64,000 nt of DNA from an uncultured Campylobacterales bacterium (GTDB lineage Bacteria; Campylobacterota; Campylobacteria; Campylobacterales; Arcobacteraceae): positions 1 to 64,000 of the forward strand of contig CANNFB010000007.1 in assembly GCA_947503785.1 (NCBI GenBank), given 5' to 3'. Every line of letters begins with the position of its first letter. Position 1 is the stretch's first letter. The notes below the pieces were generated by a model that was not told the DNA's origin, searched no databases, and worked only from the letters and a program-made list of their open reading frames with translations. Below are positions 32,111 to 38,457 of this stretch, one piece after another. Position numbers and translations under genes: made by a program.

Positions 32111-33268
32111 TTATTTATATTCATGAGAAGAAAGAACTTTATTTCTACCTTCTTCTTTAGCTTTATATAGTTGTTCATCAGCTATTTTAATAGCTTCGCT
32201 AAGTGAGAGAGATTGTTGAGGTCTATTATTAACTCCAAAGGAAGCAGTAATGTAGATTGTTTCATTATCTGTTACAATTGGAGTACTTTCAATCTCTTTT
32301 CTTATTCTTTCTGGTACTTTATAGGCTCTTTTATGATTTAATTTTGAAATTATTAAAAGAAATTCTTCTCCTCCAAATCTAATTAGGATATCATCTTTTT
32401 TTATTTTATTTAATATTCTTTTTGCAAAAGCTTCTAAAACAATATCTCCTGTATTATGTCCATAGGTATCATTGATCTTTTTAAAATAATCAATATCTAT
32501 CATACATAATTCATAATTATTTAAGTTAATATTCTTTTTTAAAGTGTCAAGATATAGCCTATTATAAGCTGTTGTTAAAGGATCAATAAAACCTCTTTTT
32601 TCTGTTTTATTGTGTCTGTATAATTGAAAATAACTATATATTAAAAATATTACTAATATTAAAGATGAATATAAGAACATACTTTTAATTGGATTAATCA
32701 TATTTACTATAAAAGTATGTTCATTTGAAGAAAAGTCAAAAGCAAGAATAGCAATTGTTTTATTGTTGACTCTAATTGGATATAAATAAGTAATCCACAA
32801 GTCTTTAATATTTTCTTGAAAAGCATATTCAGGAATGGATGAATCAAATACTTTATTCCAAAGATTACTTAGAGGATCAAATTTTTGATTGAAAAAACCT
32901 CTTTCTTCTAAGTTTGTTTCAGCATCAAGAAGATATCTAAGTCGTCCTTTTTCATCTTTTCTTATTACAAATATTTGAATATATTTTGAAGACTTAAATA
33001 AAGATAATTCAGCTTCAATTTTATTTCTTAGTTTTTCATCTTTTTTTAAATGTTCATAAATATCATTATTTTTTAGGTGAGTTCTAATCATTATACTTAT
33101 ATTTTGAGCATACTCAGAAGTTTTGTAAATTTCATTTTGTAAGATATCTTTTTTTATTTGTTCTGTATTTTTATCAAATTGAAAATATACAATAGTTATT
33201 ATTACTGTAAAGACAGTAAGGATTGCTAGTGAGAATATATTTATTTTAGATTGAATAAATTGTTTCAT
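32111..33268 (-). CDS. Membrane-bound diguanylate cyclase
   Basis: The 385-residue protein has a helix at about 11-30, a periplasmic domain (about 31-192), a second helix at about 195-215 and a GGDEF domain with the active motif GGEEF at 299-303. It makes cyclic di-GMP. The inhibitory site that is usually RxxD five residues before the motif reads KxxD (Lys290, Asp293), so product inhibition may be weak. It is the third gene of an operon with a TonB-dependent receptor and a small periplasmic protein, which suggests that its periplasmic domain is controlled by them, as YfiN is by YfiR. Confidence 0.93.
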   Translation of the reverse strand: MKQFIQSKINIFSLAILTVFTVIITIVYFQFDKNTEQIKKDILQNEIYKTSEYAQNISIMIRTHLKNNDIYEHLKKDEKLRNKIEAELSLFKSSKYIQIFVIRKDEKGRLRYLLDAETNLEERGFFNQKFDPLSNLWNKVFDSSIPEYAFQENIKDLWITYLYPIRVNNKTIAILAFDFSSNEHTFIVNMINPIKSMFLYSSLILVIFLIYSYFQLYRHNKTEKRGFIDPLTTAYNRLYLDTLKKNINLNNYELCMIDIDYFKKINDTYGHNTGDIVLEAFAKRILNKIKKDDILIRFGGEEFLLIISKLNHKRAYKVPERIRKEIESTPIVTDNETIYITASFGVNNRPQQSLSLSEAIKIADEQLYKAKEEGRNKVLSSHEYK

Positions 33269-33271
33269 ATT

Positions 33272-33685
33272 TTATTCAATATACTTATAAAACTCACTAG
33301 GCAAAGTTATATTATGTTTTTTCAAGATTTCTTCTCTAAAAATTATATTAGGTCTTCCTTTTTGATAGAAGAATGCTCCAATCGCCTGTGGTAAAGCTTT
33401 AAAAGCTAAATAGTTTGTAGCAAATACAAGTACTTTTTTATCACATGTAGGAATATGTTTAGTATGAGTTATTATAATATCTACTTTATCGCAAGAAGAA
33501 ATATTTTTCATTGTACTAGAATATGAAACAATTTCCTTATTTCTTATATCCTTTGCGATTATAAAAGTAGGCTCTTTTTTTATTAAAGCATTAGTGATTT
33601 TATCCATAATTTTTGAGGCAGTTTCCAATTCGCCAGAGAATAAAGGAGATAAGATAAGGATTAGAGTAAGTAGAAACTTTTTCAA
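33272..33685 (-). CDS. Small periplasmic protein, possible YfiR-like regulator
   Basis: The 137-residue product has a signal peptide (cleavage near 18) and a domain with two cysteines (in SSCDKVDII and IPTCDKK). The pattern CDKVDIIIT, VLVFATN, GAFFYQKGRPNIIFREE and a final LPSEF resembles the YfiR (DUF4154) family: a CxxxFI strand, a VLTVSD-like strand and a final G-x-I-x-F-x-x-x-x-x-R-x-x-F stretch. YfiR is a periplasmic inhibitor of the diguanylate cyclase YfiN. It overlaps the receptor gene by 4 bases and ends 3 bases before the cyclase gene. The family assignment is tentative. Confidence 0.7.
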   Translation of the reverse strand: MKKFLLTLILILSPLFSGELETASKIMDKITNALIKKEPTFIIAKDIRNKEIVSYSSTMKNISSCDKVDIIITHTKHIPTCDKKVLVFATNYLAFKALPQAIGAFFYQKGRPNIIFREEILKKHNITLPSEFYKYIE

Positions 33686-35643
33686 AATCTATACTCCATC
33701 GTAAGCCAAAACTTTTTAGTTGCTACTGAAATTGGCCCTAAGTCATTTGGAGAATCTGCATAAATGCTTTTAAGAGCTTTATTGAAAATATTTTCACCTT
33801 TTACAGATACTGATAAATCTTTTGAGTGCTTATATGTAATTGCACTATTAAAATCATATCCTGCGTCCAAGTCTTCGTATCCATCTTTGTATATTAATTC
33901 ATTGTAAAAATCAAATTTTTTATAAGTATTTAAAAATCTTATGTATCCTCCATAAACAGTATCTTTTTTATTTGAAAATTTATTTTCTACATTCATAATA
34001 TAAAAATTTGTATCAACTCTATTTAATTTATTAAAGTTATAAGTATTTTTTAATGATATCCCCTGCCTATAATAAGGTTTAGGAAGATTTTGAATAAAAG
34101 TATTGCTATAAAGTTTATTTGTTTGTTTTGTTTTAAATAAGTTTATGCCATATTGATGTGACTTCTTCTTCCAGTTAGCCTCTATATTAATTGAGTCATC
34201 TCTTTGAGGATTTAGGTCACTAGCAATATTAAATCTTGTATAATAATTTGGATCAAATCTTGATTGGGTAGATACTAAAAAAGTTTTAAAACTAAAATTA
34301 CTATTAGCATAAATATATCCTAATCGATAAAGAGATAATTTTTGATCTTCTAACCCGCCATTTGGCTTAACAATATCTTTTTTTATTGCAGCTATTATTG
34401 CTTGATTGTCATTTATTGAATAAGTATCTTCTACAAATACTCCATAAAGTTTTTCACTTGTATAATTAAATAAGTTTGGCAATATACTAGCATCAATATT
34501 AGTTGGGCCCCTACCTAAAATATTTGCATTTATTTCAGAAAAAGTGAAATCTTTTTTTCTATATTGTAGTCCTGTTAATAGATTATGATTACCTATCTTT
34601 TCTTTATACTTTAAAACTGCACTTACTTGTTTCTCTTTTGACTTTACAAAATATGAATTATATTGCACTGGTACTAGGGTTCCCGTAAGAAATGGATTAA
34701 TAAATCCTCCATCAATCATTAATGTGGCTAATGGATCATCATCGCTTTCTGCAGTCTTAGCTGTATCACTTATATAATCTAAGGATAAAGATACTTTATC
34801 TTCAAAATATGTTGAATACCAACCTAAAAGATTATATACAACTTCAGTGTTATTTTCTTTTGGGGAACCATCTCCTCCTCCAATACCATCCATAAATAAA
34901 TCAGAGTTTGCTTCAATTCTATTATATTCTAACCTATTCGTATCGTTTTGCAATGAAAGAAAAAGATGCTTACTCTCTTTATCTCTTGATAAATCTGTAC
35001 CTTCGTGGTTAATTTTTTCTTCATTCGTAGTTTTTTTATTTACATATGCATAATATGAGAAATCTTCAAGAATATCAGAATAAGAAATACTGTTTTCTTT
35101 TGAACTATTAGAACCAATACTTGTTTTAACTTGTCCTCCAACTTCTCTTTGAGGGTCTTTTGTATAAAGTCTTACAACCATGCTCGCAGGTTCAACTCCA
35201 AATTCAAAAGATGTTACACCTGTATATATTTCTATATGATCAATATAAGCAAGGTCAAATTTTGAAACAATACCTAATCCATTTCCGTAGAAGGGAGAAG
35301 TAACTTCTCTTTCATTTATATAAACTCTTGCATCACTACTTAAAGATGGAAAGCCATCTTCTCTTAATAAATCGGTATAACCTAGTTTATTTTCATTGTA
35401 ACTATAAAATGGAATATTTTTTAGAAGTTCGGATAAAGATTTAACTTGCATTCTTTCTAAATCTTGTTTTGTATATATGATTACATTTCCAGCGGCTTCT
35501 TTTTTAGTTTTTACAGATAGGTCATTTTCTTTTGCATATATATTTAATAATGTATCTATATTTTCTTCTGCATTAACATGTAATTGCAAAGAGATTATAA
35601 TAAAAAAATAAATTATAATATTTTTAATGTAGTTTTCTTTCAT
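33682..35643 (-). CDS. TonB-dependent outer membrane receptor
   Basis: The 653-residue protein has a signal peptide (cleavage near 25), a plug domain (about 45-150: NVIIYTKQDLERMQVKSLSE and ARVYINEREV followed by IDHIEIYTG) and a 22-strand barrel region ending in WLTMEYRF with the C-terminal Phe of outer membrane barrels. Such receptors import siderophores, metals or other scarce ligands using TonB energy; here no uptake genes follow, but a small periplasmic protein and a diguanylate cyclase do, so it may act as a sensor. No Fur box was recognised upstream. Confidence 0.93.
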   Translation of the reverse strand: MKENYIKNIIIYFFIIISLQLHVNAEENIDTLLNIYAKENDLSVKTKKEAAGNVIIYTKQDLERMQVKSLSELLKNIPFYSYNENKLGYTDLLREDGFPSLSSDARVYINEREVTSPFYGNGLGIVSKFDLAYIDHIEIYTGVTSFEFGVEPASMVVRLYTKDPQREVGGQVKTSIGSNSSKENSISYSDILEDFSYYAYVNKKTTNEEKINHEGTDLSRDKESKHLFLSLQNDTNRLEYNRIEANSDLFMDGIGGGDGSPKENNTEVVYNLLGWYSTYFEDKVSLSLDYISDTAKTAESDDDPLATLMIDGGFINPFLTGTLVPVQYNSYFVKSKEKQVSAVLKYKEKIGNHNLLTGLQYRKKDFTFSEINANILGRGPTNIDASILPNLFNYTSEKLYGVFVEDTYSINDNQAIIAAIKKDIVKPNGGLEDQKLSLYRLGYIYANSNFSFKTFLVSTQSRFDPNYYTRFNIASDLNPQRDDSINIEANWKKKSHQYGINLFKTKQTNKLYSNTFIQNLPKPYYRQGISLKNTYNFNKLNRVDTNFYIMNVENKFSNKKDTVYGGYIRFLNTYKKFDFYNELIYKDGYEDLDAGYDFNSAITYKHSKDLSVSVKGENIFNKALKSIYADSPNDLGPISVATKKFWLTMEYRF

Positions 35644-37038: not shown

Positions 37039-37407
37039 CTAATTTTCTAAACACTTAGGGCAGATACCCTTAATGATTATATTATCAACTTGATAGTTGA
37101 CAAGATTTAAATCAAGTCTTTCATGTATGCATTCTATTTTTGAACAAGTTGTACAAATAAAATGAGAATGCTTTGTCTTTTGTATTTCAAAATATCTTTT
37201 TTTATCATTTGATTCAAAAGAGTTTATAATATTTTCTTCTTCAAACTTTGTTATATTTCTATAAAAAGTTGCTTTGTCCATTGACAATTCATTCTTTATA
37301 TCTTCATAAGATAAGGGTTTATCAGAAGATATCAATATCTCTAATATAGCTTTTCTCGCACTTGTTAGTTTTATATTTTTTACATTTATTATTTTTTCTA
37401 TGTTCAT
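37039..37407 (-). CDS. zur: Fur-family regulator, probably zinc-responsive Zur
   Basis: The 122-residue protein has a winged helix (about 10-75, MDKATFYRNITKFEEENII) and a C-terminal metal domain with HSHFICTTCSKIEC and GICPKC, giving the CxxC...CxxC structural zinc site. A His-rich sensor region typical of Fur is reduced. It is divergent from znuA, and two CAACTAAGTTG palindromes lie between, so it most likely represses zinc uptake genes when zinc is plentiful. A -10 box (TATAAT) ends 6 bases before the ATG with no ribosome binding site, suggesting a leaderless mRNA. Confidence 0.88.
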   Translation of the reverse strand: MNIEKIINVKNIKLTSARKAILEILISSDKPLSYEDIKNELSMDKATFYRNITKFEEENIINSFESNDKKRYFEIQKTKHSHFICTTCSKIECIHERLDLNLVNYQVDNIIIKGICPKCLEN

Positions 37408-37413
37408 AAGAGA

Positions 37414-37419
37414 ATTATA
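37414..37419 (-). promoter_or_regulatory. -10 box of zur, suggesting a leaderless mRNA
   Basis: On the minus strand TATAAT is separated from the zur ATG by only six bases (TCTCTT), which places the expected transcript start at or next to the start codon. Confidence 0.5.
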
Positions 37420-37444
37420 TCTATTTTTCTTTAAAATTCATTTA

Positions 37445-37455
37445 CAACTAAGTTG
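37445..37455. promoter_or_regulatory. Zur-type operator, copy 1
   Basis: CAACTAAGTTG is an 11-bp perfect palindrome with central A, flanked on one side by GCA. It lies on the zur side of the zur-znuA intergenic region. Confidence 0.72.
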
Positions 37456-37489
37456 CATTAAAGAATAAATTCATTAAAATTCGCTAATC

Positions 37490-37502
37490 GCAACTAAGTT
37501 GC
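37490..37502. promoter_or_regulatory. Zur-type operator, copy 2
   Basis: GCAACTAAGTTGC contains the same core as copy 1, extended by a matching G/C pair, 46 bases from copy 1 and 23 bases before the znuA start, where it would block the znuA promoter. Confidence 0.75.
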
Positions 37503-37524
37503 AGTATATAGAAAAAGGAAATAA

Positions 37525-38457
37525 ATGAAAAGATTATTAATAATCGCTTTTTTGATGATATCATCATTAAGTGCTCAAATAAAAGATGTAACTGTAAGTA
37601 TTGTTCCTCAAAAATATTTTGTAAAAAAAATTGCAGGTGATAAAATAAATGTAAATGTAATGGTAAAACAAGGTTTCTCTCCTGCAAACTATGAACCAAA
37701 AACTTCACAAATGAAAAAACTATCAGATTCTAGTATTTACTTTGCAATTGGCGTGGCTTTTGAAAACTCATGGCTTAAAAAGTTTAAAAATGCAAATAAG
37801 AATATTCTTATGGTTGATACTTCTTTAGGAATAAAAAAATTAGAAATGGCAGAGCATTCACATCACGAAGATGAAAAACATGTTGATGATGATCACGAAA
37901 AACATGGCGATCATGATGACCATGATGATCACGAAAAACATGACGATCATGATGATCATGCAAAACATGAATCTTTAGATCCTCATATTTGGAATGATCC
38001 GATATTAGTAAAAATACAAGCAAAAAATATTTATGAAGCACTTGTAAAAGTAGATAAAGCGAATGCATCTTTTTATAAAGAAAATTATGAAAACTTTATT
38101 AAAGAATTAGATTTATTAAATCAAAAATTAGAAACTATTTTAAATCCTTATAAAAACAAAGCTTTTATGGTATTCCATCCATCTTGGGGATATTTTGCTA
38201 AAAGATATTCTTTAGAACAAGTTGCAATTGAATCACAAGGAAAAGAGCCAAAACCAAAAGAATTAGTTGAATTAATCAAAGATGCAAAAGAACATAATAT
38301 TAAAATAGTATTTGTAGCTCCTCAATTTTCACAAAAAAGTGCAAAACTAATAGCAAATAGTATTAATGGTTCCGTTCACGTTATTGACCCATTAGCAAAG
38401 AACTGGGAAGAAAACCTAATTCAAACTGCAGAAAAAATAGCTGATACTTATAAGTAA
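37525..38457 (+). CDS. znuA: Zinc ABC transporter substrate-binding protein ZnuA
   Basis: The 310-residue periplasmic protein has a signal peptide (cleavage near 17) and the cluster A-I metal-binding fold (VSIVPQKYFVKKIAGDKINV at the start, DPHIWNDP in the middle, FHPSWGYFAKRY). A loop at about 112-152 is extremely rich in His, Asp and Glu, as in ZnuA proteins, where it collects zinc. GGAAAT precedes the ATG. No znuB or znuC is in the window; the next gene, directly abutting, encodes a DUF1007-NicO transporter, so ZnuA may feed that, or a ZnuBC encoded elsewhere. Confidence 0.93.
   Translation: MKRLLIIAFLMISSLSAQIKDVTVSIVPQKYFVKKIAGDKINVNVMVKQGFSPANYEPKTSQMKKLSDSSIYFAIGVAFENSWLKKFKNANKNILMVDTSLGIKKLEMAEHSHHEDEKHVDDDHEKHGDHDDHDDHEKHDDHDDHAKHESLDPHIWNDPILVKIQAKNIYEALVKVDKANASFYKENYENFIKELDLLNQKLETILNPYKNKAFMVFHPSWGYFAKRYSLEQVAIESQGKEPKPKELVELIKDAKEHNIKIVFVAPQFSQKSAKLIANSINGSVHVIDPLAKNWEENLIQTAEKIADTYK
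37888..37959 (+). repeat. 36-bp tandem duplication in the znuA His-rich loop
   Basis: Two adjacent 36-base units (37888-37923 and 37924-37959) differ at two positions. They encode DDHEKHGDHDDH and DDHEKHDDHDDH. The in-frame unit length means copy number can vary without breaking the gene. Confidence 0.8.

Follow-up and report, generated by a model that had tools for sequence, protein, structure and literature searches.

A TonB-dependent receptor as candidate input to a YfiR-like cyclic di-GMP system in Campylobacterota

Introduction

How might a substance at the cell surface set the level of cyclic di-GMP inside the cell? The question is raised by three adjoining minus-strand genes on a 64,000-nucleotide stretch of DNA from an uncultured Campylobacterales bacterium (contig CANNFB010000007.1, the window), which encode a TonB-dependent receptor, a small secreted protein and a membrane diguanylate cyclase. 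In the periplasmic YfiR systems Malone et al (2012, PMC3375315) describe most divergent YfiR-YfiN pairs as having no YfiB, and because of this their input has been left open. The outer-membrane gene of the present trio, in the window and in the surveyed loci, is likewise not a YfiB-like Pal lipoprotein; a TonB receptor stands there. We consider that the trio is probably a Yfi-type transenvelope relay, with the receptor rather than the lipoprotein YfiB as its outer-membrane input.

What we observe are the genes, the folds or domains of their products, the conserved gene order, co-inheritance, and outputs that mostly bear cyclic di-GMP domains. The receptor as input is the leading hypothesis that accounts for them.

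Results

Conservation of the three-gene order

Relatives of the small protein occur in 42 of the 104 genomes of the same bacterial family. Forty neighbourhoods were fetched out of 45 matches outside the source genome, and in 30 of these the receptor, small and GGDEF genes follow in order, the receptor being split between open reading frames (ORFs) in two (L058, L060). A profile scan of a named genome collection, from which the best 80 of 98 relatives were kept, recovered records from Campylobacterota and Aquificota (Persephonella, Aquificaceae and one labelled Aquifex), with a complete adjacent trio on one strand in 68 of the 80 loci; in six of the 68 the small ORF had been missed by the ORF filter. 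The two surveys overlap, several loci lying on the same contigs. As the arrangement recurs in this many neighbourhoods of both surveys it is far beyond chance; conservation of the three-gene order is strong.

The departures from it are of several kinds. Among the remaining 12 collection loci, one has a duplicated receptor-small pair ahead of the GGDEF gene (L117), four run off contig ends (L130, L141, L172, L180) and two carry kinases (L118, L122). In the family survey a histidine kinase is the output in L033, L034 and L044, and L039 reaches a contig edge; L122 is the same contig as L033, and L118 the same as L034.

With a wider profile the small family was detected in 86 of the 397 phylum genomes sampled and 24 of 68 genera, against 33 of 397 genomes for DUF4154 proper, the family of YfiR. 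In the 29 new loci from this search (L190-L218, nearly all best matches) the receptor is upstream in all and a GGDEF gene downstream in 28, the exception, L213, being the kinase locus of genome G044. To offset the bias towards best matches 20 further loci, mostly the weakest, were fetched; 17 have the receptor directly upstream and nine, L231 included, are directly followed by GGDEF. L230 instead carries a GGDEF-EAL gene upstream of its receptor, and L238 has a hydrolase-like fragment as its next ORF. The trio is retained across many sulfur-vent and marine bacteria, environmental isolates with it being Sulfurospirillum arcachonense DSM 9755 (L113) and Sulfurimonas indica NW8N (L110). Pairwise distances in 55 complete trios are also correlated (receptor-small r 0.87, small-sensor 0.82, receptor-sensor 0.90), values reached in 0 of 1000 permutations.

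YfiR proper beside TonB receptors

The same pairing is seen with YfiR itself. Across 30 campylobacterotal loci many DUF4154 genes adjoin TonB receptors, in either order, and GGDEF or kinase genes accompany them. A Pfam check of ten neighbours of DUF4154 genes, eight of them campylobacterotal, gave for those eight six TonB barrels, one PAS-HD protein and one CHASE8 kinase. In three loci DUF4154 and GGDEF are predicted to be fused in one protein (L090:1426-2952, L091:1426-2928 and L092:1429-2973, the latter two identified by BLAST and ORF size) directly downstream of a long ORF, which in L090, the one scanned, encodes a TonB barrel. Such a predicted fusion is a natural link of YfiR to a cyclase output. 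Receptor, YfiR and output genes also occur together in all four of the plasmid loci opened, from Alpha- and Gammaproteobacteria, these being the four records matched by two campylobacterotal DUF4154 queries. The output is an EAL protein in Pseudoalteromonas and a kinase in two Sphingobium and in Indioceanicola, where the record is unannotated and the arrangement was read from ORFs. The Escherichia coli YfiR query matched 88 plasmid records, mainly from Pantoea; E. coli K-12 carries YfiR-DgcN-YfiB.

The trio in the window and its surroundings

The ORF coordinates (Table 1) agree with a first-pass annotation of this DNA in which the three genes overlapped or lay 3 bases apart, and the Pfam matches bear out its naming of the receptor and the cyclase. 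The overlap between receptor and small gene suggests translational coupling; in most relatives from the collection scan it measures 4, 13 or 28 bases.

Table 1. Features of the trio in the window.
Feature	Coordinates	Strand	Size and start	Pfam match	Layout or basis
TonB-dependent receptor	33682-35643	minus	653 amino acids, ATG	Plug 1.3e-9	signal peptide, conserved pre-plug segment (NIDTLLNIYAKENDLSVKTKKEAAG), plug, beta-barrel; no STN signalling domain found
Small secreted protein, predicted YfiR fold	33272-33685	minus	137 amino acids, TTG		conserved C-terminal hairpin GAFFxxKGRPNI; cysteine pair C65/C81
Membrane diguanylate cyclase (predicted)	32111-33268	minus	385 amino acids, ATG	GGDEF 3.7e-38	transmembrane helix, periplasmic Cache/PAS-like domain (about residues 35-195), transmembrane helix, GGDEF domain
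Overlap of receptor stop and small-gene start	33682-33685	minus	4 bases		coordinates and sequence
Gap between small gene and cyclase	33269-33271		3 bases		

Upstream, an NhaA-like gene stops 87 bases ahead of the receptor; downstream, a gene for an AraC-family regulator begins 49 bases past the cyclase and is accompanied by EamA and amino-acid permease genes. These flanking genes are not common to the relatives, and since the outer neighbours differ from one to another the unit is the three genes alone. Promoter-like sites around the locus are not in excess (49 found, 48.9 expected from shuffles).

Farther along the window, at 37039-38457, translations indicate a Fur-family-like regulator gene divergent from one whose substrate-binding product contains a histidine-rich stretch, a pair that suggests zinc uptake.

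Some relatives of the small gene stand in other surroundings. Divergent members in L069 (4641-6870), L070 and L235 adjoin an M23 peptidase (identified in L069) and a 248-amino-acid protein without a family match; there is no receptor or GGDEF gene. In L111 (5489-7479) a small-family gene is flanked by a DksA-like gene on one side and a MotA/ExbB-family gene on the other. The public record of L122 is titled Helicobacter pylori PMSS1; the same contig is found in G050, from the window's own family, and the label looks wrong.

The small protein

Is the small protein similar to YfiR? By its predicted structure, yes: the AlphaFold model (mean predicted local distance difference test score 94.5) has the YfiR fold. 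It superposes on the YfiR crystal structures 4xjy, 4zhu, 4yn7 and 4yn9 with VIA Z scores of 9.1-9.6 and root mean square deviations of 3.3-3.4 over 122 of its 137 residues; of these entries, which rank among the leading matches, 4xjy scores highest (Z 9.6). By alignment with hhalign, the invariant Ile114 of the small family would correspond to Phe162 of YfiR and Leu121 to Ile169, with a register uncertain by 1-2 residues. Phe162 lies in the middle of the patch by which YfiR is proposed to bind YfiN (PMC3375315), and Ile169 is a surface residue for YfiB and YfiN (PMC4887326).

By sequence the small family is barely YfiR-like. The first-pass annotation had taken a CDK...IIFREE pattern as a YfiR signature; it is not a DUF4154 motif, and a profile search found no DUF4154 gene anywhere in the source genome. 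The YfiR likeness claimed there stands for the predicted fold and not for membership of DUF4154. The 137-residue protein matches no Pfam and no NCBIfam family, direct searches with it gave chance-level matches at most, and a plasmid search queried with it gave none. It is a member of an uncatalogued protein family. Some of the invariance seen in the alignment of that family is by construction, because the collection loci were picked by the pattern F[FY][WY]xK[SG]RP[NES]I, and concerns the positions of that pattern.

A number of results weigh against reading the trio as a Yfi-type relay. DUF4154 (PF13689) gave no match above the Pfam cut-off in the window protein or in any of 66 family members. 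The comparison with YfiR by hhalign gave a probability of 87% (87-89% in the first results) with the signal peptide included and 12% once it was removed from smaller alignments, so the higher value is mostly driven by the signal peptide; it was dropped as evidence of homology and the mature parts were compared instead. With deeper alignments these scored 30.0 (E 1.3e-4), the best of 200 column shuffles reaching 18.4, at a probability of 54%; the score exceeds the controls, and any homology of the mature part is weak. Against the divergent DUF4154 group the small family gave 0.6% without the signal peptide, which is not significant. Foldseek alone placed the model against YfiR at E 0.16 or worse, and ATP-binding cassette (ABC)-type binding proteins match it equally well (3lft, Z 10.2; 3lkv, Z 9.2), so the YfiR-type fold cannot single out a repressor; the resemblance of YfiR to such binding proteins was already known (PMC4655355). 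As to gene order, the output gene is missing in L032 (family survey), L103 and L114 (collection scan), the receptor in L137, L231, L235 and L236, and both in L111. L068 has a GGDEF gene without a receptor, L069 and L070 have neither, and frames are interrupted in three loci, in the small gene of L052 and L053, where all three genes are present, and in the receptor of L129. Finally, the distance correlation implies a stable unit and not contact, because shared descent alone would yield it.

The likeness to binding proteins raises another possibility, that the receptor imports a ligand which the one-lobe small protein carries, the Cache-like domain of the cyclase sensing either the ligand itself or the carrier once loaded; in that case the small protein would activate the enzyme or act as a co-receptor instead of repressing. 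Cache-type domains are usually small-ligand binders, and amino-acid binding ABC proteins are among the best fold matches, one of them, 3lft, with L-Trp bound. In one Aliarcobacter-type locus (L048:9057-9743) a gene for a TonB-family energising protein lies just upstream of the trio, two small ORFs beyond. YfiR itself weakly binds L-Trp and vitamin B6 in the pocket that YfiB uses (PMC4887326). The model, on the other hand, is one lobe only, about half of a binding protein, the neighbours scanned include no consistent transporter or catabolic gene that would hint at a ligand, and the proteins of this fold that have been studied beside a cyclase, YfiR and HmsC, are repressors (PMC4655355, PMC5550408). 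Ligand delivery therefore seems rather unlikely, the Yfi-type relay with a repressing small protein being preferred.

The cysteines bear on a further alternative. Cys65, which aligns at the position of YfiR Cys110, is present in 48 of 66 members, each time with a second cysteine nearby, the pattern that a disulphide would leave; four members have the second cysteine only, and 14 have neither. The two conserved pairs of YfiR, C71-C110 and C145-C152, are not both present, there being the single C65/C81 pair in those 48. Disulphides in YfiR and HmsC influence stability and partner binding (PMC4655355, PMC5550408), and those of HmsC control binding to HmsD (PMC5550408), so that the pair might report the thiol state of the periplasm to the cyclase, with the receptor as a co-regulated passenger. 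We regard a redox sensor of this kind as highly improbable: a fifth or so of the members (14/66) do without both cysteines, the pair may be merely structural, and the conserved receptor would be left unexplained.

The receptor

The window receptor is a TonB-dependent receptor, a plug followed by a beta-barrel. All 22 aligned receptors have the Plug domain; the barrel profile is matched in three, and length and the C-terminal Phe fit a barrel. No STN or other signalling domain was found in the 22. Their mature N-terminus carries a conserved segment with the consensus IDxLLxxYxxxSDLSxxTKxExAG, whose profile matches neither the other three TonB receptors of the source genome nor the fetched YfiR-associated receptors, many of which are cut ahead of the N-terminus. 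Complete YfiR-associated receptors bear their own counterpart to it, such as KSLEELLxxETELKAxxGSR. Our proposal is that the pre-plug segment docks the periplasmic small protein.

Among solved structures FhuA is the closest in sequence, and as this match reaches only E 0.0065 over the plug region the ligand is not readable from it. An NCBIfam TonB-B12 identity was rejected, the receptor scoring 36.9 bits where the cut-off is 599.7. The neighbours share no theme that would give a clue to the ligand (acetolactate synthase, FtsW, LepA, cytochromes, response regulators and others).

The usual role of TonB receptors is uptake, and the contacts between receptor, small protein and cyclase are predicted, so the locus could be a plain uptake operon, with a nutrient brought in by the receptor and the small protein while a merely co-expressed cyclase senses something else. 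This appears very unlikely to us, given that the output gene stays with the receptor and small genes while other neighbours change, and that a different signalling protein often stands in where the GGDEF gene is missing.

The cyclase and other outputs

In the window cyclase the GGEEF motif is intact and the I-site reads KKDD, the arginine missing. The protein is a predicted diguanylate cyclase by its intact GG[DE]EF motif, and the structure model (score 90) matches GGDEF structures at Z of about 20-23, which fill the match list. The periplasmic sensor looks Cache-like, with Cache-type Pfam models matching merely two of 23 aligned output proteins, and weakly; no CHASE8 model matches it, and no HAMP domain was found in the window cyclase.

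The downstream gene takes three forms, encoding GGDEF by itself (the form in the window), a GGDEF-EAL protein, or a histidine kinase (L044, L118 and L122), with cyclic di-GMP domains in most. EAL is added in 10 of the 23 aligned proteins, a set picked to display both forms. In L221 (4018-7601) and L225 (3969-7413), the two being 42% identical, a histidine kinase gene precedes one for a receiver-PAS-EAL protein, a putative two-component route to cyclic di-GMP breakdown. ORFs matching this set by size alone occur in L219, L220, L223, L224 and L227.

Discussion

The first-pass annotation had supposed that a TonB receptor takes the place of the lipoprotein, a proposal it made dependent on similarity to YfiR or conservation of the gene order; we find a conserved order and, in the model, a YfiR-like fold. 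YfiR proper stands beside TonB receptors as well, and the proposal is partly borne out. The physical contacts, the regulatory sign and the identity of the ligand we infer. The small protein, by way of its conserved C-terminal hairpin region, would most likely bind the cyclase at the Cache-like domain and keep the enzyme inactive, in the way YfiR acts on YfiN. Binding of a ligand, or movement of the plug driven by TonB, could then expose the pre-plug segment of the receptor, which would capture the small protein and so play the role of YfiB in Pseudomonas. The cyclase would be released and cyclic di-GMP would rise. Through the small protein, the receptor may in this way govern enzymes that make or break cyclic di-GMP.

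A conserved TonB receptor in the YfiB slot offers a concrete, testable input for YfiR-type systems. If the relay is real, a surface-bound substance could set cyclic di-GMP, and hence swimming versus sticking, without a sigma-factor cascade. The uncatalogued family is a gain in itself, being found in more of the sampled phylum genomes than DUF4154 proper. It is possible, and we put it forward tentatively, that TonB receptors are a general YfiR-type input, ligand capture or import being read by a one-lobe YfiR-fold protein and passed to a cyclic di-GMP or kinase output; the short family might then be a YfiR-fold lineage doing so in Campylobacterota and Aquificota, with IDxLLxxYxxxSDLSxxTK of the receptor as the docking element. 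In the open-access literature, subscription papers and preprints being outside its scope, no paper was found to treat YfiR/DUF4154 and a TonB receptor as parts of a single system. Relative to the literature searched, the TonB receptor as a regular partner of YfiR-fold regulators is new, as is the small family.

Among known systems, YfiBNR of Pseudomonas, YfiR-DgcN-YfiB of E. coli and HmsCDE of Yersinia have the same plan, an outer-membrane protein, a periplasmic YfiR-fold protein and an inner-membrane cyclase with a periplasmic sensor. YfiN is described as having no I-sites (PMC10127611), which recalls the window cyclase. The trio differs from YfiBNR and HmsCDE in having a TonB-dependent receptor where these have an OmpA/Pal-like lipoprotein; its small protein is shorter than YfiR and not recognised as DUF4154, and its cyclase differs in a sensor that looks Cache-like, with no match to a CHASE8 model, and in that no HAMP domain was found in the window protein. 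The YfiB-less systems share the YfiR-type regulator and variable outputs, GGDEF-EAL proteins or histidine kinases (Malone et al, 2012, PMC3375315), whereas here a TonB receptor is nearly always present, a protein with no mention in the main text of that paper. The binding proteins 3lft and 3lkv resemble the small protein in the fold of one lobe; the small protein is a single lobe, and no ABC transporter is among the scanned neighbours. In the FecA-FecR-FecI (extracytoplasmic function sigma factor) systems a TonB receptor likewise relays an outside signal across the envelope. There the output is a sigma factor, whereas the receptors studied here carry no STN domain and stand beside cyclic di-GMP domains or kinases.

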